DNA from: a virus
Direction: 5' to 3' (one strand)
IMG/VR virus record: IMGVR_UViG_3300032334_001128
Coordinates: 62,001-126,000 of that record
Length of the DNA stretch: 64,000 bases
The notes under the pieces are model-generated. The model was not told where the DNA came from and did no database searches. It saw nothing but the letters and a program-made list of their open reading frames with translations. This document shows, piece after piece, positions 19,026 to 61,674 of this stretch. Every line of letters starts with the position of its first letter. Positions within the stretch are counted from its first letter, which is position 1. The translations under genes were made by a program, and so were the position numbers.

Positions 19026-19053
19026 GATGTACAAAACTGATACATTATTATAT
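19026..19053 (+). promoter_or_regulatory. Promoter-like conserved block, copy 1
   Basis: The block TGTACAAAA-C-TGATACATT followed by ATTATATAAC is repeated with a single base change at 50525-50552, in the same position relative to a similar hairpin. AT-rich hexamers in the block (TATTAT, TATATA) could be the -10. It lies 22 bases upstream of the metallopeptidase ATG. Promoter function is inferred from conservation and position. Confidence 0.55.
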
Positions 19054-19074
19054 AACTAGTTAGGTTCGATAGAA

Positions 19075-30205: not shown

Positions 30206-32014
30206 TTACAGAATACCTTTCTTGTCGTCTTTTAGCAATTCGAGAAGTTTACCCTTATCTTTCACGATTTGCTCAAAGTTATCGGCCTTACTTTCTAAGA
30301 CTTGGATAACACGTTCCTCGATAGTACCTTCAGTTACATAGTCCATGATAATTACTGAGTCATGGATTTCAGAACCGATGCGGTGAATACGATCGAGAGC
30401 TTGTTTGTGGTCTACAAGAGACCATGGTCTTTGTAGCATAACTAATCTACGTCCGGTTGTCAAGGTGACACCAACACCACCAGCCTGGGCAGTGAATAGG
30501 ATCCACTTAATCTTGCCTGATTGGAAATCATCAATAGCTTTTTGACGCTCGTCTCCGCTTTGAGCACCAGTGATTAGACCATGTGGAATTCCTTCTTTGG
30601 TCATACGAGCACTAAGTAGATCAATTAGCTGACGTGATACTGCACATACAGCTACGCTGTCGTCACCAAAGTCGCCTTCTTTAATATCATCCATCAGAGC
30701 ATCTACCTTACATGATGGCTCTGACAAAGTTACAGTGGTTTCTCCAGTAGCTTCATCAATTACTGACTCAGCAAATGAGCTAGCAAACTGATGTAGACGT
30801 ACAGCTTGAGTCAGAACACTAGGAGCCACTACAGAATCTCCGCCCTCAAGCTCAGCGATCATATTGTCACGCATCTGCTCGTAAGCTTTCTTCTGCTTAG
30901 TAGACATCTCGACGTCACGACGTTCAAACATCATCTCTGGTAGCCAAGGAAGTACACGAGCCTTGAGCATACGACGCATACGCGGGTTGATAGTTGCATG
31001 GAATTCTTCTTCCATATGAGACTTAAGTCCAAGAACCATCATTCCACCAAACGCATTTAGCATTGTGTTGACCATACGATCAATCCAGCGTGTTTTGCTA
31101 GGCCACTCGTCTGGAGAAATCCAGTGAAGAATTGGCCAAAGATCAATGACGTTATTAGCAATAGGGGTACCGGTAAGTGCAAAACGAATATCTGCATCGC
31201 CAGTAGCTGCCCATAGGGCACGAGTCTGTTTAGACTTAGGTTCTTTTGAACGGTGCATCTCGTCAGCAATAACTGCCTTGAAATCAATTTCGTTTAGTTC
31301 TCTTTTGTGAACTTCACATCTAGTCTCAGTGACGCGGTCGTCCATGCCACCACACTCTTTACAGCGAGCTAGTGCAATTGATCCATATCCAGAAAGCCTT
31401 GAGTGAGAACGCAATGATTCCCAGTTGATAACGTAAACGTCAGCTGGCTCTTCAAACTGCTTACGGCGTTGCGTAGCTGTGCCAGAAATTACTTGCACCT
31501 TTACATCTGGCCACCACTTAGCAAACTCTCGTTTCCAGTTTTTCTTCAAAGTGTTAGGGCAGACAATCATTGCAGGAAATACTTCCTGACCCTGGTCTTT
31601 CAAAAGTTTTAGAGCACGGATAGCTTGGGCTGTCTTACCTAGTCCAGGTTCATCAGCTAGAAGTGCACGACGTGCAGTTGCTAGAAACTTTACGCCAGCA
31701 CGCTGGTGTGGGAATAGATCTTGATCGCCTTCGCCATCTGGCAGAAGTTCTAAGTCTCTAAGAAGATTAGCTGGATCTACTCGATTATTACGCTCTTGAG
31801 TAGCCCACTCAACGAGCTTTGGACCTAATACAAGATCGTCTCTAAAAGTAGATCTAAGAGCTAAACAAGCAGTCCAAGATACTGGAATTTTCCATACTTG
31901 CTCTTTTGGATCCCAGGTAGCACCTGGAATGCTTTTACATAGTTCTTTGAATCGCCAATCCGTATAGATGGCAATGTGAGAACCGGAGTCGTTCAGTTCA
32001 ACATTTACTGGCAT
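30206..32014 (-). CDS. SNF2-family DNA helicase/translocase
   Basis: 602 aa. Residues 1-90 have the shape of a HARP/SMARCAL1-like N-terminal module (WDPKEQVWKIPVSW). Walker A DEPGLGKTAQAIRALK, the Walker B box VIADEMH (DEMH rather than DEAH), GTPIANN, and helicase C motifs GGVGVTL and RIHRIGS follow. A CxxC...CxxH-like insert lies in the first RecA lobe (ARCKECGGMDD then TRCEVH). It probably remodels forks or loads at recombination intermediates next to the polymerase and the RuvC-like nuclease. Confidence 0.9.
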   Translation of the reverse strand: MPVNVELNDSGSHIAIYTDWRFKELCKSIPGATWDPKEQVWKIPVSWTACLALRSTFRDDLVLGPKLVEWATQERNNRVDPANLLRDLELLPDGEGDQDLFPHQRAGVKFLATARRALLADEPGLGKTAQAIRALKLLKDQGQEVFPAMIVCPNTLKKNWKREFAKWWPDVKVQVISGTATQRRKQFEEPADVYVINWESLRSHSRLSGYGSIALARCKECGGMDDRVTETRCEVHKRELNEIDFKAVIADEMHRSKEPKSKQTRALWAATGDADIRFALTGTPIANNVIDLWPILHWISPDEWPSKTRWIDRMVNTMLNAFGGMMVLGLKSHMEEEFHATINPRMRRMLKARVLPWLPEMMFERRDVEMSTKQKKAYEQMRDNMIAELEGGDSVVAPSVLTQAVRLHQFASSFAESVIDEATGETTVTLSEPSCKVDALMDDIKEGDFGDDSVAVCAVSRQLIDLLSARMTKEGIPHGLITGAQSGDERQKAIDDFQSGKIKWILFTAQAGGVGVTLTTGRRLVMLQRPWSLVDHKQALDRIHRIGSEIHDSVIIMDYVTEGTIEERVIQVLESKADNFEQIVKDKGKLLELLKDDKKGIL

Positions 32015-32093
32015 TTGTGTTATTCCTTTTGTCTTTATGTATACATACTAGCATAAAAAATCTAGTTTAGTTTTAAATTTTTTGCTAGTATCT

Positions 32094-32564
32094 CTAACTT
32101 TGTAGCAATTTTACTGGTTTCCAGCCACTTTTTACTAATCTTAATAGGGCGTGTCGGATTGCATCAAGTGCGTGTCCCTCACCACCACGGTGCCAATAAT
32201 CCAAAATTCTGATCTTTTCATTAGTGAACATGGCTTTAGCATCTGCTGGAGATTGAAAGAAAATATCATCCGGAGCTCTGCCATGATCTAACATGACTTG
32301 TTTAAGAATTCCGATCTGCTCCAATGAGTATGGAGCCTGAGAGTTCTTGACGGTCTGAGCATTGATAGTAAATCTCTCACAGACTACTTCTAATCTATTA
32401 CCAGTACCACTGGCATAAAGAAAAGCTCGGCGAATTGGATCAGCGTACTCGTGTTGCTGGTATTCACCGGACCAGAGCATTTCTGGTTCGCTTCCCTCGT
32501 CCCATCTAAAAAAGCAAACCCCACTGGCTTTACCTGGGTCAACTGCCAAAATCAATCTACTCAT
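32094..32564 (-). CDS. RuvC-like Holliday-junction resolvase/RNase H-fold nuclease
   Basis: 156 aa from ATG 32562-32564, which overlaps the polymerase stop (ATGAGTAG) and has GGGGAGAAA just upstream; an earlier in-frame start at 32585 is less likely. The first strand LILAVDPGKASGVCFF contains the catalytic Asp; a glutamate follows in VVCERFTI; the final region HALDAIRHALL holds acidic and His residues as in RuvC. Phage RuvC-like enzymes resolve branched DNA before packaging. Confidence 0.75.
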   Translation of the reverse strand: MSRLILAVDPGKASGVCFFRWDEGSEPEMLWSGEYQQHEYADPIRRAFLYASGTGNRLEVVCERFTINAQTVKNSQAPYSLEQIGILKQVMLDHGRAPDDIFFQSPADAKAMFTNEKIRILDYWHRGGEGHALDAIRHALLRLVKSGWKPVKLLQS

Positions 32565-37832: not shown

Positions 37833-38020
37833 CCTAGAAGTGCTTGAATTTCTTCTTCGGTAAGGCCAAGTGCTTGTAGTTTTGCTAAAGCAGATTGTCT
37901 AGTTGCTAACGCTTGTGCCTCTTGCTCTGCTGATTGCTCTCTAGAGGCAATTTCTTCTGGTGTTTCATCTCTTTCAATTATTTCACCAGTGGTGCAGTTT
38001 AGTTCGATTATTCTATTCAT
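37829..38020 (-). CDS. Small tail-fibre accessory/C-terminal cap protein (63 aa)
   Basis: The start ATG overlaps the fibre stop (TAATG). The sequence is MNRIIELNCTTGEI, an acidic region (DETPEEIASREQ) and a C-terminal helix (LAKLQALGLTEEEIQALLG). Short proteins with the N-C-T-T-G start and acidic helix follow tail fibre genes in many aquatic phages; they are thought to assist fibre folding or attach to its end. This role is from position and resemblance. Confidence 0.6.
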   Translation of the reverse strand: MNRIIELNCTTGEIIERDETPEEIASREQSAEQEAQALATRQSALAKLQALGLTEEEIQALLG

Positions 38021-41000
38021 TAGTTTATTCCGTATAGATAGGCGGTTCCAGTGGCTGAAGTAAAAGTTCCAGTAGATGCTGTAAATGTTATTGAGGTGAT
38101 TGCTGAAGTTGATGACCCTACTCCCCATCTAGAAGACTGACTTGAAGCACCAGTTCCACCTGATACCCATACAGTTGGTCTTGTTTGAGAGTAGTTTGGT
38201 ATCTCTACTGTCATTAAATCTCCAATTGAGGGTGCTCCGTTAGTTATTGGTATGACAGTTGCTGAAGTGCTTACTGATGAAGTTGTAGAACCGGTATTAT
38301 ACAGCGTATAAGCAGTAGCAGTTCCACCATTAAATTGAATTTGTAAGTTTCCAGTAATGTTTCCAGCATTTGTAAAAATTATCTGAGCAACAAGTTTTTT
38401 GTATGTTCCTGGAATTGAAGTAAATGAAGGTGCTGCTCCAGAGAAAGCAAGTGGAGTACCGCTACCTGAAGCAACATTGTATGATCCAGTTACTCCTTGT
38501 GCTCCAGTTGCTCCAGTTGTACCTTGTGTCCCTGTTCCAGTTAGACCTTGAATTCCAGATGTACCTTGAACACCTTGTAGCCCAGTTGTACCTTGAATAC
38601 CTTGAGTTCCTGTAGTTCCTTGGCGACCTTGTACACCCTGAATGCCTTGAGTGCCTTGTAGCCCAATAATTGAAAACTTCCAAGAGGAGCTTGAACCAGA
38701 ACCAGAAAAAGATGTAATGTCTACTGTAAAATAATTATTGTCTCCGTCATAATCCAAAGAAACTATAGTTCCTTCTAGATATCTAGCAGTATTAGTTTGA
38801 TCAATAATTCTTATATTTGCTCCAGCAGCATAGGCTTCATGTGAACCAGATGAAGGGTAAAAAGCCTTTAAACCAGTTGAAAATGTATGAAGACTTGTGC
38901 TAGTTACTGTATATCCTGCACCAGTAGGTCCTGTATAACCAATAGAGCCAGTTGTACCTTGAGCACCTCTATCGCCAGCAAGAGCAAGAGTCCAAGAACT
39001 ATATGTTCCTGAACCATTTATATAGTCAATAGTTGTTATTAACTCACCAAACTCGCCGAATGCAGTGACTCTACCTTCCATATAGTTTGATTGATATGGT
39101 GCCTCTGCTATAAATCTAACTCTTACACCTATAACATTAAAACCTTTAAAGTCATTACTATTACTTGAGAATGCCTTAGAGCCTAGTGAAATTGTATTAG
39201 ATGATGAACTGTATACTCCTGTATAGCCAACTCCATTGATTCCTTGTGTCCCTGTTCCAGTTAGACCTTGAATTCCAGTTGTACCTTGAGTTCCTGTAGT
39301 TCCTTGGCGACCTTGTACACCTTGAATGCCTTGAGTGCCTTGAGCACCCGTTGTACCTTGGGAACCTGTAATGCCTTGTAATCCTGTAATACCTTGTAAA
39401 CCAGTAGTACCTTGAGTACCTGTTGTCCCTTGAGCACCTGTTGTTCCCTGTGCTCCATTTGTACCTATAAAACCGCTAGTACCTTGAGCACCAGTAATTC
39501 CTTGTGTACCTAAACCTGTTGTACCTTGTAGTCCAGTTGCACCTTGAGTCCCTGTCGTACCTTGAGTTCCTGTTGCACCCTGCAATCCAGTAGTACCTTG
39601 AGTTCCGTTAGTTCCGTTAGTTCCGCTAGTGCCTTGAGTACCAGTTGTTCCTTGGGCTCCAACTGGACTTATAGAATCAAGTGAGCCGTCACCCTTTACA
39701 TACTGAGCAGAAGTTCCACCTTGAGTGATGAACTTATCGGCGTTGATTAGCTGAAAATAGTCAATGGAGTTTGTTGTTCCACCAGTGCCCGATGAGGCAA
39801 CCAGGGTCGAGTTTGGCTTGTCGTACACGCAGTTGAGGATTGAGTAGAAGCCGATCAAAACGACTGGTGCGACATTGTTTAGTGCGGAAGTCAGTAGTTG
39901 ACAGTTTGCTAAAGTAATCACACTTGAGGCAGCCGATGTCACGGCATTGGTCACAGCAGCAACGACTACAGAATCTACAAGGCTTAGAGTTCCAGCAGTT
40001 AGAACAGGGGCAACGGTGACAGCACTTTTTACAATCACATTGGCACTAGCGTTGTTGACGGTTATGAAGTTTGGGTTACCGCCAAAGATGGCAACTAAAC
40101 CTGCTCCAGTAATGCTTGCGGCACCGAGATCACACAACCGAAGAACGGTGTAGTCAGCGTTGCTGCTCTTTGTAAAGGTTCCAGAGACCTCACAGTTTAG
40201 GATGTTTACGTTTCCCGTAGCGGTTGGGGCAGTTACGGTTAAGTTTGTCATCTTTATACCTGCAATAGTACAGCCAACACTTGTGCTTAGAGTTCCAGAG
40301 AGTACAATGTTTCCACCGATAAGCCCAGGACCTGTTATGGTAGTGTATTGGACAGTTATTGACGGGCTTTCAGTGTACGTTCCTGGGTGAACAATAATGG
40401 TTTTACGCTGTGAATCTACTAAAGTCAATGCCTTAGTAATAGAAGCAACTGGAGTAAGCAAATCACCATTACCAGTAGTGTCATTTCCATCTACTTGACT
40501 AACGTGAATTTCATAGTCATAGCCTGTGAAGGTTGTGCCTTGTACACCTTGAATACCTTGGACAGAGAGACCCTGAGTTCCTTGAATACCGATAAGACCT
40601 TGAGTACCTTGAGTACCTTGAGTGCCTTGAAGTCCTTGAGGACCCTGAGGACCCTGAGGACCATCATTACCAATAAAACCTATTTGACCTTGGATACCCC
40701 TTTGACCCTGAAGTCCCTGAGTACCTTGTGCACCTTGGGCACCTGTTGTGCCTTGCACACCTTGAGTTCCTTGGGTACCAGTTGCACCTGAGCCTCCATC
40801 TGGCCCTTGAGGTCCTGTTACACCTCTTAGACCTTGAAAACCAGTAGTTCCTTGTAATCCTTGGGTGCCTTGAGTACCTGTTGAGCCCTGAGCACCTGTA
40901 GTTCCTTGACTACCAGTTGTACCTTGAGATCCAGTGTTACCAGTTGTACCTGTTAAACCTTGTGTACCAGTGGTACCCTGCGAACCATTGGTACCGTTAG

Positions 41001-42393
41001 TACCACTCGTACCCTGAGTTCCAGTTAAGCCTTGAGTACCCGTGGTTCCCTGCGTACCAGTTAATCCTTGTAATCCAGTAAGCCCTTGAAGACCTGTTGT
41101 ACCTTGTGTACCTTGTGTACCTTGCAACTGAGCAAAGCCAAAGCCTTGAACACCCTGAATACCCTGAATACCTTGTGTACCTGTATCACCTTTATCACCT
41201 GTTCTTACAAAGGTGACTATAATGTCGTCTGAGTTTGCAAATGTGGCTGGGTTTCCAGACACGTAAGAACCAGTTACGGTGAACCAGCCTGTGTTGCTAG
41301 TTAATGCTGTGATAGTAAATAATGCAAATACACTGGCATCAAATTTCTTTGCAATTCTAAAGTGACCCTTAATAGCAGAACTAGAGTCGTCAATAGTGTT
41401 AAGGAAGCTGGATACATCGGTTGTTGCATCATTACTTGCATCAACATACATCTGAGTTGCAGATGAGATCGTAGCGTTGTTAAATCTTATAAAACCAGTA
41501 CCTGGGTCGGCTGCTGTAGTAGTTGTGCTGTAGGTGTAATCAAAAGTTGCTCCACCAAAGTTTCCATCTCTACCTACGGTACCTTGGATTCCTGTTATAC
41601 CCTGTGTACCCTGTAGGCCTTGGATGCCCTGTGTTCCCTGAGCACCTTGTGCACCTGTAAGACCTTGAATACCTGTCGTACCCTGAACGCCTTGTGTTCC
41701 TTGTACGCCTTGTGTTCCTTGCGTACCTAAAGCACCTTGAGTCCCTGTTGTACCTTGAGTTCCTGTCGTACCTTGAACACCTTGAACACCTTGAACACCT
41801 GTAGCACCCTGAGTTCCCGTGATGCCTTGAGAACCTGTAATACCTTGTGAGCCAACCAATCCTTGAGTACCTGTTGCACCTTGTAGTCCTGTTGTACCTT
41901 GTGCACCAACCACACCTTGAGTGCCTTGACTACCAGTAACTCCTTGTACGCCCTGAGTTCCCTGAACTCCTTGTACGCCCTGTACACCTTGAGTGCCTTG
42001 TGAACCGACTGCACCTTGTAGTCCAGTTGCACCCTGAGTACCTACCGAACCTTGTGTTCCAGTTGTACCCTGTAGTCCGGTAGTTCCTTGTATGCCTTGA
42101 GTACCTTGTGTACCCAGTGCACCCTGAGTTCCTGTAGTGCCTTGAATACCTTGAGGACCTTGTATTCCTTGAATACCTTGGGTACCTTGAGTAGCGATTC
42201 GTCCTTGGATACCTTGAGTGCCCTGAGCACCTTGTGTACCTTGTACTCCTTGAATACCTTGGAGTCCGGTAGCACCTTGTGATCCAACAGCAGAAACAAT
42301 TACTTTATTTTCTTGATCTTGGATAATTACGTGATTAACGTCCGAAGAATCAATGATTACTTTATTTGGGAGATCTTCATATATTGGAGACAT
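38020..42393 (-). CDS. Collagen-like tail fibre with internal beta-helix and C-terminal jelly-roll-like domain
   Basis: 1457 aa. Residues about 35-275, 395-645 and 910-1100 are almost uninterrupted G-x-y triplets (mostly G-T-Q, G-I-Q, G-V-Q, G-T-T), collagen-like but without hydroxyproline sites expected in animals. Between them lie non-repetitive blocks: about 275-395 (a virion-type beta domain), about 645-910 with S-I-T-K-A-L and V-H-P-G-T-Y-T-E-S-P, a pectate-lyase/right-handed beta-helix pattern, and further beta domains near 1110-1270. The C-terminus (about 1320-1457) looks like a beta-sandwich tip. Likely receptor-binding long fibre. Base composition of the beta-helix part (bases near 39700-40500) is more GC-rich than the collagen parts, so domains may have different origins. 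Confidence 0.85.
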   Translation of the reverse strand: MSPIYEDLPNKVIIDSSDVNHVIIQDQENKVIVSAVGSQGATGLQGIQGVQGTQGAQGTQGIQGRIATQGTQGIQGIQGPQGIQGTTGTQGALGTQGTQGIQGTTGLQGTTGTQGSVGTQGATGLQGAVGSQGTQGVQGVQGVQGTQGVQGVTGSQGTQGVVGAQGTTGLQGATGTQGLVGSQGITGSQGITGTQGATGVQGVQGVQGTTGTQGTTGTQGALGTQGTQGVQGTQGVQGTTGIQGLTGAQGAQGTQGIQGLQGTQGITGIQGTVGRDGNFGGATFDYTYSTTTTAADPGTGFIRFNNATISSATQMYVDASNDATTDVSSFLNTIDDSSSAIKGHFRIAKKFDASVFALFTITALTSNTGWFTVTGSYVSGNPATFANSDDIIVTFVRTGDKGDTGTQGIQGIQGVQGFGFAQLQGTQGTQGTTGLQGLTGLQGLTGTQGTTGTQGLTGTQGTSGTNGTNGSQGTTGTQGLTGTTGNTGSQGTTGSQGTTGAQGSTGTQGTQGLQGTTGFQGLRGVTGPQGPDGGSGATGTQGTQGVQGTTGAQGAQGTQGLQGQRGIQGQIGFIGNDGPQGPQGPQGLQGTQGTQGTQGLIGIQGTQGLSVQGIQGVQGTTFTGYDYEIHVSQVDGNDTTGNGDLLTPVASITKALTLVDSQRKTIIVHPGTYTESPSITVQYTTITGPGLIGGNIVLSGTLSTSVGCTIAGIKMTNLTVTAPTATGNVNILNCEVSGTFTKSSNADYTVLRLCDLGAASITGAGLVAIFGGNPNFITVNNASANVIVKSAVTVAPVLTAGTLSLVDSVVVAAVTNAVTSAASSVITLANCQLLTSALNNVAPVVLIGFYSILNCVYDKPNSTLVASSGTGGTTNSIDYFQLINADKFITQGGTSAQYVKGDGSLDSISPVGAQGTTGTQGTSGTNGTNGTQGTTGLQGATGTQGTTGTQGATGLQGTTGLGTQGITGAQGTSGFIGTNGAQGTTGAQGTTGTQGTTGLQGITGLQGITGSQGTTGAQGTQGIQGVQGRQGTTGTQGTTGIQGLTGTGTQGINGVGYTGVYSSSSNTISLGSKAFSSNSNDFKGFNVIGVRVRFIAEAPYQSNYMEGRVTAFGEFGELITTIDYINGSGTYSSWTLALAGDRGAQGTTGSIGYTGPTGAGYTVTSTSLHTFSTGLKAFYPSSGSHEAYAAGANIRIIDQTNTARYLEGTIVSLDYDGDNNYFTVDITSFSGSGSSSSWKFSIIGLQGTQGIQGVQGRQGTTGTQGIQGTTGLQGVQGTSGIQGLTGTGTQGTTGATGAQGVTGSYNVASGSGTPLAFSGAAPSFTSIPGTYKKLVAQIIFTNAGNITGNLQIQFNGGTATAYTLYNTGSTTSSVSTSATVIPITNGAPSIGDLMTVEIPNYSQTRPTVWVSGGTGASSQSSRWGVGSSTSAITSITFTASTGTFTSATGTAYLYGIN

Positions 42394-48566: not shown

Positions 48567-48909
48567 GGGGATGACTGGTTTCGACAGTTATTCTGAAATT
48601 GGTGAAGCAAGCAGAGATGACAGTATCTCTTGAATCTGTCAAAACAATAAATGCTAACACATCTGCATACGCTCTAGCCGCGTGATTTAATCGCAACGCT
48701 TAGGCCCCTGACAAAGCACTAGTTCTAGGTGGGCAGTCAGGTTTTAAATAAGTAGGACAAAACAAAAGTCTCTCCCACAAGACTTTAAAGAGTGGTAACG
48801 ACTTGATGGTCTGGTAGGTCATACATCTAAGCCGTAACATAAACTACCTAAGCTTGTAGAAGAACAATGGATCCGTAACTGGACCGGGGTTCGATTCCCC
48901 GCATCTCCA
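48567..48909 (+). ncRNA. ssrA: tmRNA (ssrA), phage-encoded
   Basis: 5' end GGGGATGACTGGTTTCGAC and 3' end GGTTCGATTCCCCGCATCTCCA: the acceptor stem GGGGATG/CATCTCC pairs with one G-U, the T-arm and loop are intact, and CCA is not encoded. The tag frame is read from GCT at 48653: ANTSAYALAA followed by TGA at 48683-48685. The resume codon is chosen by analogy with the AAATAAGC-GCC context of mycobacterial tmRNA; a start at AAA 48641 would give four more residues. Length about 343 nt. It would rescue stalled ribosomes and tag proteins for host ClpXP. Confidence 0.9.
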
Positions 48910-48967
48910 CGCTTGTAGACAAAGGAGCGTAAAGCGGTCTACCCGTCCTAGGCAACGGAATCTCCAA

Positions 48968-50502: not shown

Positions 50503-50524
50503 ACACCCCTAAAAATATAGTCTG

Positions 50525-50552
50525 TACAAAAGTGATACATTATTATATAACC
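50525..50552 (+). promoter_or_regulatory. Promoter-like conserved block, copy 2
   Basis: TGTACAAAA-G-TGATACATT then ATTATATAAC is the same as copy 1 at 19026-19053, apart from one base. It lies 24 bases upstream of the glycosyltransferase ATG. Confidence 0.55.
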
Positions 50553-58068: not shown

Positions 58069-58275
58069 CTATTTTGTCGGAGTATTCCAAACCGCGTCGC
58101 GGACTTTAAATACCAATTCAGCTACGTCTCCGCCGAGCTGTTCTACTGCTAATAGTAGGTCTGCTCTTTGATCGGGATCGGAGGTAACTTCGAACTCATT
58201 GGTGATTTCGTCGACAACAAGAGTGCACAGAATGATCTTATTTAAGATCTCTGTTGGCTCAAATGGTTCGGTCAT
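58069..58275 (-). CDS. Small acidic protein (68 aa)
   Basis: A helical, acidic sequence (EPTEILNKIILCTLVVDEITNEFEVT). It begins the minus-strand lysis-type operon, 11 bases before the PA14 protein. No family is recognised. Confidence 0.5.
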   Translation of the reverse strand: MTEPFEPTEILNKIILCTLVVDEITNEFEVTSDPDQRADLLLAVEQLGGDVAELVFKVRDAVWNTPTK

Positions 58276-58720
58276 AGGTCTATTTTATCCCGAAAACTGG
58301 AAGGGGATTATGGGGAAATGTGGTAGGTTAAAACTATGAAAAACAACCTAAAACCATGAAATGCAACTATATCTGAAAACGAGGCATAGTGTATAGTAGA
58401 AATCGGTACCTTACCATAAAGTGTTGGAGAAAATGCAAAAAGTCTTGAACAGCTGCTTAGATCTGATACATTGAGATACTAGCAAAAAAATTAAAAATAA
58501 AATGAAAAAAGTTGTTATGTCATGAAACCATGAAACCATGTAACCATGTAACTCAACTATATTTTCTATACGCGTATAGAGTTCAATTCTACGCCAAGTA
58601 AAACTATAGTTGACTTACATGGTTACATGGATTTAAGTCTGTTTTAGGTTGTTTTTCATGACATTCATGGTTTGGTTTGTGCTAGACTGAAAAAGCAAAT
58701 TTTTGTACAAGGAGAAAAAT
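58276..58720. promoter_or_regulatory. Repeat-rich, ori-like non-coding region
   Basis: 445 bases with no gene between divergent operons. Perfect 19-bp inverted repeat ATGAAAAACAACCTAAAAC (58336-58354; inverted copy 58641-58659). Inside it, 26-bp arms 58536-58561 and 58605-58630 match inversely with one mismatch. Four tandem 8-mers, CATGAAAC twice then CATGTAAC twice, occupy 58521-58552. A perfect palindrome CTATACGCGTATAG lies at 58566-58579 in the middle of the 26-bp pair. Copies of the 8-mer also occur inverted at 58615-58629. Such direct-plus-inverted repeats are known in iteron-type origins and partition sites. Function is inferred. Confidence 0.7.
58683..58688 (+). promoter_or_regulatory. 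Extended -10 promoter for the right operon
   Basis: TGC-TAGACT with a weak -35 GACATT 17 bases upstream. It would start RNA near 58695. AAGGAG at 58709-58714 is 6 bases before the ATG 58721. Confidence 0.5.
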
Positions 58721-59182
58721 ATGGAAGATAAGAATAAAGATCCGTTTTCATTTATGGATTTTACATTGGAAGAAGCGATTGAAGCGGATCAGTCAGTTGA
58801 GACTGGACGTTCTAGAGATGGAAGAGTTTGTGCTTGTGGACATCCAATGACAAGACACGTACTTGTTGCCGGACTAGTGTTCTGTAAGCCAACCAGAATG
58901 GAATGTCCATGTAAAGAACAACGAGCTGTGATTGAGACAACAGACACAAGATCGTTCCTGAGAAAGACTGCTGGACAAGGAGCTCTCCATGCTTTAGGCA
59001 GAGGACTTCAAAATGCAATCAAAGCTGGGCACAAGGTTGAATGGCTGATTGATATGAAGTGTGATCGATGTGAAGCTGAAGGTCCGATTGCTCCAGTTGC
59101 AGTTAGCCAGCGTGGCGTTGCTATGGATGAAGCAACAGGATATGATAGGCTCCTATGCAAGCAATGCAGAACGGAAATCTAA
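58721..59182 (+). CDS. Hypothetical protein with two Cys clusters
   Basis: 153 aa from ATG 58721 with AAGGAG upstream; the TTG at 58703 is not used. Zinc-like clusters: VCACGHPMTRH (C-x-C-x5-H) then FCKP and ECPCKE; a second set, KCDRCEAEGP and LLCKQCRTE near the end. It opens the right plus-strand operon. Zinc-finger regulator or DNA-metabolism accessory is plausible; no named family is recognised. Confidence 0.6.
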   Translation: MEDKNKDPFSFMDFTLEEAIEADQSVETGRSRDGRVCACGHPMTRHVLVAGLVFCKPTRMECPCKEQRAVIETTDTRSFLRKTAGQGALHALGRGLQNAIKAGHKVEWLIDMKCDRCEAEGPIAPVAVSQRGVAMDEATGYDRLLCKQCRTEI

Positions 59183-61199: not shown

Positions 61200-61411
61200 T
61201 GTCTTACTGGCAAGCACTGAAGGTAGTCCTCGGTATTGATGCTATTAAGAATCGTAGGAAGATGAATCGTCAGCGTAGGATCGATGCCTTGTTTGCAAGT
61301 TCCCACTTCCAAAAACCAGAGCGAGATGAGTATGGTAGGTGGATTGTTTCTGCCCCCAAAAAATCTGGTTGCTGTGGTGGAGAGCAGTGTCAATGCAAGA
61401 AGTCGAACTAG
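61199..61411 (+). CDS. Small basic protein with C-terminal Cys cluster (70 aa)
   Basis: Overlaps the preceding stop by one base. N-terminal helix and Arg-rich NRRKMNRQRRID, then KSGCCGGEQCQCKKSN (four Cys). Zinc-binding or membrane-attached; unknown. Confidence 0.5.
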   Translation: MSYWQALKVVLGIDAIKNRRKMNRQRRIDALFASSHFQKPERDEYGRWIVSAPKKSGCCGGEQCQCKKSN

Positions 61412-61674
61412 TCAATGTAAAGACAGCTGCCTATCACGGGCAAGTTTCAATCAGCATGATTGGTTACATGATTCGGCGAGGATACGTAAAGCGTCATCCA
61501 ATTAAACCGGAATCAAGATACTATCTAGTTGATTTGAACGAAGTCCTCACTCAGCTTGAGCTTGGAGCAGAACGGAAGTCCAAATGCTACAACCTCCACT
61601 GGGATAAACAACCGAGGGATCGACACGGTAATTTTATTAAGTTATCTAATGATCCTCCGATCAATTTGAAGTAA
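61393..61674 (+). CDS. MerR/excisionase-like HTH protein (93 aa)
   Basis: ATG 61393 is the likely start. The segment VNVKTAAYHGQVSISMIGYM followed by RRGYVKRHPIKPESRYYLV is an excisionase/MerR-type winged HTH. Acidic C-terminal region. It follows small basic genes and precedes a terminator and the terminase gene. It could be a repressor, a recombination-directionality factor for the serine recombinase or a packaging initiator. Confidence 0.6.
   Translation: MQEVELVNVKTAAYHGQVSISMIGYMIRRGYVKRHPIKPESRYYLVDLNEVLTQLELGAERKSKCYNLHWDKQPRDRHGNFIKLSNDPPINLK

Follow-up and report, generated by a model that had tools for sequence, protein, structure and literature searches.

The window analysed here, a stretch of 64 kb, comprises bases 62001–126000 of a virus record of 126,293 bases (IMGVR_UViG_3300032334_001128). 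Within it, positions 58276–58720 lie between two divergent genes: a conserved gene of 68 aa on the minus strand (58069–58275) borders the locus at the left, and a conserved gene coding for a cysteine-rich protein of 153 aa on the plus strand (58721–59182) borders it at the right. The initial annotation described this stretch as gene-free, and in fact the only ORF longer than 46 aa that overlaps it is a TTG-start upstream extension of the 153-aa gene. The 68-aa gene gave no match in the family search, and relatives with 64% identity are found at the same position in two other loci (L009 and L010). The 153-aa protein has over 70 relatives, and its Cys-rich fold is predicted with confidence (pLDDT 88); no family match was obtained for it, its predicted structure had no match among PDB or viral folds, and a search of GTDB genomes with the protein yielded none. 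Elsewhere in the window, we have observed a complete tmRNA gene (48567–48910, plus strand) with the tag ANTSAYALAA, and a gene of 1457 aa (38020–42393, minus strand) carrying long collagen-like coding repeats of 9 bp and 18 bp.

The symmetry previously noticed in the locus is real and greatly exceeds chance expectation. A perfect inverted repeat of 19 bp (58336–58354/58641–58659), the left arm of which lies at a far-left iteron cluster, an inverted repeat of 26 bp with one mismatch (58536–58561/58605–58630) and four tandem, iteron-like 8-mers (58521–58552, plus strand; CATGAAAC twice and CATGTAAC twice) were all recovered exactly where they had been placed. Dinucleotide-preserving shuffling of the 445 bp (120 replicates) produced exact arms of no more than 13, and of no more than 15 when one mismatch was allowed, versus 19 and 26 observed. 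The 26-bp repeat forms part of a longer pair of 44 nt that is 82% complementary (58533–58576/58590–58633). The palindrome CTATACGCGTATAG was likewise found at 58566–58579 and is unique across the 126 kb, but it does not occupy the centre of the arms, being displaced by about 10 bp. Moreover, AACCATGNAA words were found at this locus only within the 64-kb window, and the words of the tandem 8-mers are limited to it save for isolated single copies.

These repeats can be described as two modules, both on the plus strand. Module 1 is a dyad composed of a left half-site with its flank, GAGATACTAGCAAAAAAATTAAAAATAAA (58473–58501; half-site TACTAGCA at 58477–58484), and a degenerate right half-site, TGTTATGT (58513–58520), which lies 28 bp from the left one and reads TGCTATAC in L018. 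Module 2 is composed of a left arm (58536–58561; inner part TCAACTATA), the outer part of which is overlapped by the tandem 8-mers, a core (58562–58604) that contains the palindrome, and a right arm (58605–58630; TATAGTTGA...).

Conservation of the inverted repeat and its core

Scanning IMG/VR with the 153-aa protein returned 5 loci, and scanning with an alignment of five relatives returned 74; in the public phage collection, Actinomycetia phage DSL-LC01 and several Microbacterium phages were matched. The two-module cis-element is shared by about 50 loci of other actinophage-like records that are homologous to this one and adjoin the same gene, and sequence comparison showed modules 1 and 2 conserved together. 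Most of the relative loci carry a long inverted repeat upstream of the homologue of the 153-aa gene. Its arms differ by lineage, yet the form CTATACGCGTATACGTGTGCGTATGGGGTAACCGAAA of the loop core is conserved, the core often being an alternating purine-pyrimidine tract; a TACGCG-type core is kept in the 40 aligned loci. As for the individual repeats, the inner arms, the core and the GATACTAG element recur in relatives, while the nearest one (L004/L018) lacks the outer 19-bp repeat. Tandem iterons are strong in L047 and L026–L028 and weak or absent in several lineages. Words of the arms occur in their own flanks at 0.0086/nt, compared to 0.0012/nt farther off and 0.0025/nt in the flanks of other loci.

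Pairing between arms of the same locus scored 17.9 on average, versus 8.7 with the arms of other loci, which is about the level of shuffles. Each of the 14 pairs tested between the arms of the 40 aligned loci showed changes on both sides, i.e. double compensatory changes, and the covariation score of the arms was 0.589 against 0.08–0.14 in slid-partner controls. Judged from these alignments, it is the symmetry, not the arm sequence, that is the conserved property of module 2.

A covarying stem could belong to a structured RNA, either a regulatory RNA or a replication primer or R-loop RNA, transcribed rightward from module 1. The right half-site of module 1 is –10-like and lies just upstream of the hairpin, the predicted fold is strong (z = –8.4) and the plus strand upstream is purine-rich, all of which would suit such a transcript. 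However, stem cells with G-U pairs exceed those with A-C only modestly (33 versus 20), and in one group of relatives (L026, L027, L028 and L030) the orientation of the module 2 core is reversed with respect to module 1 and the gene; these two observations favour a function in DNA over one in RNA, though neither is decisive. In addition, an inner hairpin within the core was rejected for lack of covariation, the Rfam search returned no family and no terminator-like site was found. We regard the RNA reading as quite improbable.

Module 2 is present once in every genome that gave a match. A covariance model found exactly one copy in each of 18 IMG/VR records, which are those matching among the records initially searched, and in the circular genome of DSL-LC01; eight further records also carried one each. 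Where the model gave a second match, it was the opposite strand of the same site. A single copy at a conserved position, together with the deposition of DSL-LC01 as circular, would be compatible with a packaging (pac/cos) site or another DNA-processing site. This is nevertheless very unlikely, as TerL and TerS of DSL-LC01 are encoded at 44 kb and 128 kb while its site lies at approximately 18.1 kb, and across records the ends of contigs fall elsewhere than at the site.

The same can be said, with even less probability left to it, of a telomere-resolution, partition or integration site. The core TATACGCGTATA resembles the centre of N15 telRL, and the N15-type telRL of telomere phages likewise combines an inverted repeat and a TACGCG(CG)TA-like centre. 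Unlike that site, the palindrome here is off-centre and the core asymmetric, and the telomere resolvase domain ResT/TelK (PF16684) was detected in 0 of 7 genomes (control positive in 1/14). Tyrosine integrase (PF00589) and ParB_N (PF02195) were also absent from the seven genomes, with controls positive in 14/14 and 10/14, respectively. These searches for the required enzymes led us to reject a telomere-resolution site, a parS and a tyrosine-integrase attP; the segregation site that the initial annotation had entertained is thus disfavoured, since ParB_N was not found in the seven genomes while its controls were positive. DSL-LC01 does, however, encode a serine recombinase, which leaves a serine-type site formally conceivable.

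The cis-element family is apparently undescribed. Searches of the literature for the element found nothing matching, and a DNA-pattern search with the core gave one match only, in an unrelated coding sequence (L223). DSL-LC01 (OQ999401) and the IMG/VR relatives have this element at the corresponding position; it is unannotated there, and the main text of the paper does not use the terms origin of replication, inverted repeat, hairpin or noncoding (PMC10611076). Microbacterium phage Cece (L094, 3690–3830) has an iteron/inverted-repeat array, AACTATCCACTATCC ... GGATAGTGG, upstream of the homologous gene; the array lacks the conserved core and is perhaps a diverged counterpart of the element.

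The module 1 dyad at the helicase gene

In most loci, module 1 appears as inverted half-sites TACTAGCNNGAAA ... TTTCNNGCTAGTA upstream of the arms, mostly 28–30 bp apart, with lineage variants of the half-site that include TACTATC, TACTAAG, TACTAGG, TATTAGC, TATTATC and TACTTAGA. The left half-site with its flank (58473–58501) is conserved in relatives and has an inverted copy, 93% identical, at 32066–32094. This copy overlaps a second module 1 dyad at 32046–32090 on the minus strand (TACTAGCA, 29 bp, TGCTAGTA), which sits between a RuvC-like gene and a gene coding for a replicative SNF2-type helicase (30206–32014, minus strand), upstream of the latter. Of about 74 related helicase genes, most are preceded by the dyad, which usually lies 24–40 nt before the start codon. 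In one lineage, seen in L199, L201 and at least 15 other helicase loci, the half-site of the helicase dyad is entirely different, ATATGCGG/CCGCATAT, while the spacing, 31 bp, is nearly unchanged. The contigs available for this lineage are fragments that do not include the hairpin locus, where ATATGCGG half-sites would be predicted as well.

The two places change together. When the half-sites of the hairpin locus were compared to those of the same genome's helicase gene in 21 genomes, 111 of 126 variable positions matched where permutation expects 77 (p < 1e-5), the half-sites of a few genomes having been chosen by eye; after removal of duplicates, 81 of 96 matched versus 56 expected. Module 1 thus occurs at both the hairpin locus and the helicase gene and co-varies by lineage across these 21 genomes, as is characteristic of an operator regulon. 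Such in-step change at two separate places indicates that one trans-acting DNA-binding factor probably reads both. A small protein encoded at 61390–61671 on the plus strand, conserved in relatives and with no family match, resembles by eye a helix-turn-helix protein of the MerR/excisionase type, and it is a candidate reader of the dyads.

These data bear on the main rival to a replication origin, namely a complex early/middle operator-promoter region lacking origin function, in which module 1 would be the site of a phage regulator or of a modified RNA polymerase and module 2 a second operator for both divergent operons. A complex operator was among the possibilities first raised for the locus, and module 1 speaks for it: at the helicase gene it overlaps an extended –10-like TGCTAGTAT approximately 24–30 nt before the start codon, its half-sites co-vary between the two places, it is tandemly repeated in some relatives, and the locus itself sits between divergent genes. 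The right half-site at 58513–58520 may likewise be the extended –10 of a rightward promoter. On the other hand, module 2 has a single copy per genome, a near-perfect 26-bp arm pair round a 43-nt core is unusual for one, and, on our reading of the sequence, apparent promoters adjoin each divergent gene outside the arms. We hence rank this explanation after the origin and consider it rather unlikely, although less so than any of the rivals dealt with above. Concerning promoters in general, a 29-nt sequence, TGTACAAAA(C/G)TGATACATTATTATATAAC, occurs twice on the plus strand with 97% identity (19028–19056 and 50523–50551) and is possibly a shared phage promoter.

The locus as a candidate replication origin

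Replication origin was the first function suggested for the locus, and it is still the best single reading, supported by the single copy, the AT-richness, the co-diverging iterons and arms, the position and the operator shared with the helicase, even though the switch in skew is missing. Mean AT content peaks at 66–69% at the site versus approximately 51% around it, as would suit an AT-rich unwinding region. No GC-skew inflection was seen in G000, in DSL-LC01 or in the averaged loci, the skew being positive on both sides. Since it is positive nearly all round the circular DSL-LC01, skew neither places nor excludes a unidirectional origin.

An origin joined to a replication-linked control site fits the single copy per genome, the constant place, the AT-richness, the iterons and arms that differ by lineage, and the operator that the locus has in common with the helicase gene. 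From sequence comparison, we propose that the locus acts in cis as a control element of the phage present in a single copy, most likely a replication origin combined with a replication-linked operator/promoter, a reading that leads the others while falling somewhat short of an even chance. Several observations stand against the origin besides the skew. No initiator gene adjoining the locus was recognised in family and fold searches, the control of the RepA_N search giving no match; iterons are weak or lacking in several lineages; and the Microbacterium phages with a polymerase of about 60% identity gave no match to module 2. Moreover, module 1 lies where the –10 of a promoter would be expected before the helicase gene, so it may be purely transcriptional.

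If the locus does act as an origin, one phage protein would bind module 1 at both places and couple expression of the helicase to activation of the locus. Module 2, with its core and inverted arms, would be recognised by an initiator or the replisome and would be the place where the AT-rich DNA opens; transcription coming from module 1 and entering module 2, or extrusion of a cruciform, would possibly assist this opening. Origins of the T4 type consist of a middle promoter and an unwinding element, and here too a phage-controlled promoter and AT-rich replication-start DNA would be combined; however, inverted arms and a conserved core are foreign to that type, and the phages studied here are not relatives of T4. 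A second parallel is the noncoding ori of the V. cholerae phage satellite PLE, which has repeated semi-palindromic sites, the iterons varying together with the DNA-binding domain of the initiator RepA (PMC8263062); the repeats here are also lineage-variable. PLE differs in having three iterons of about 30 bp and a cognate RepA (PMC8263062), whereas our locus has a conserved core flanked by inverted arms, no recognised initiator and, apart from the arms, a dyad shared with the helicase gene. It is conceivable, but distinctly unlikely, that we are dealing with a phage origin of a new class. In such a class, an initiator or replisome would read a conserved core displayed by inverted arms that evolve together, as duplex symmetry or as an extruded cruciform; arms and half-sites would diversify fast, perhaps to avoid cross-talk or origin-directed attack, and one phage factor would link the firing of the origin to expression of the helicase.

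The two modules define a searchable, previously unnamed family of cis-elements that occurs in a large group of actinobacteria-type phages from the environment, one related genome, DSL-LC01, having been deposited as an Actinomycetia phage. The family offers a testable candidate for the replication start of these phages, as well as a two-site regulon in which half-sites evolve in step with a putative phage DNA-binding protein.
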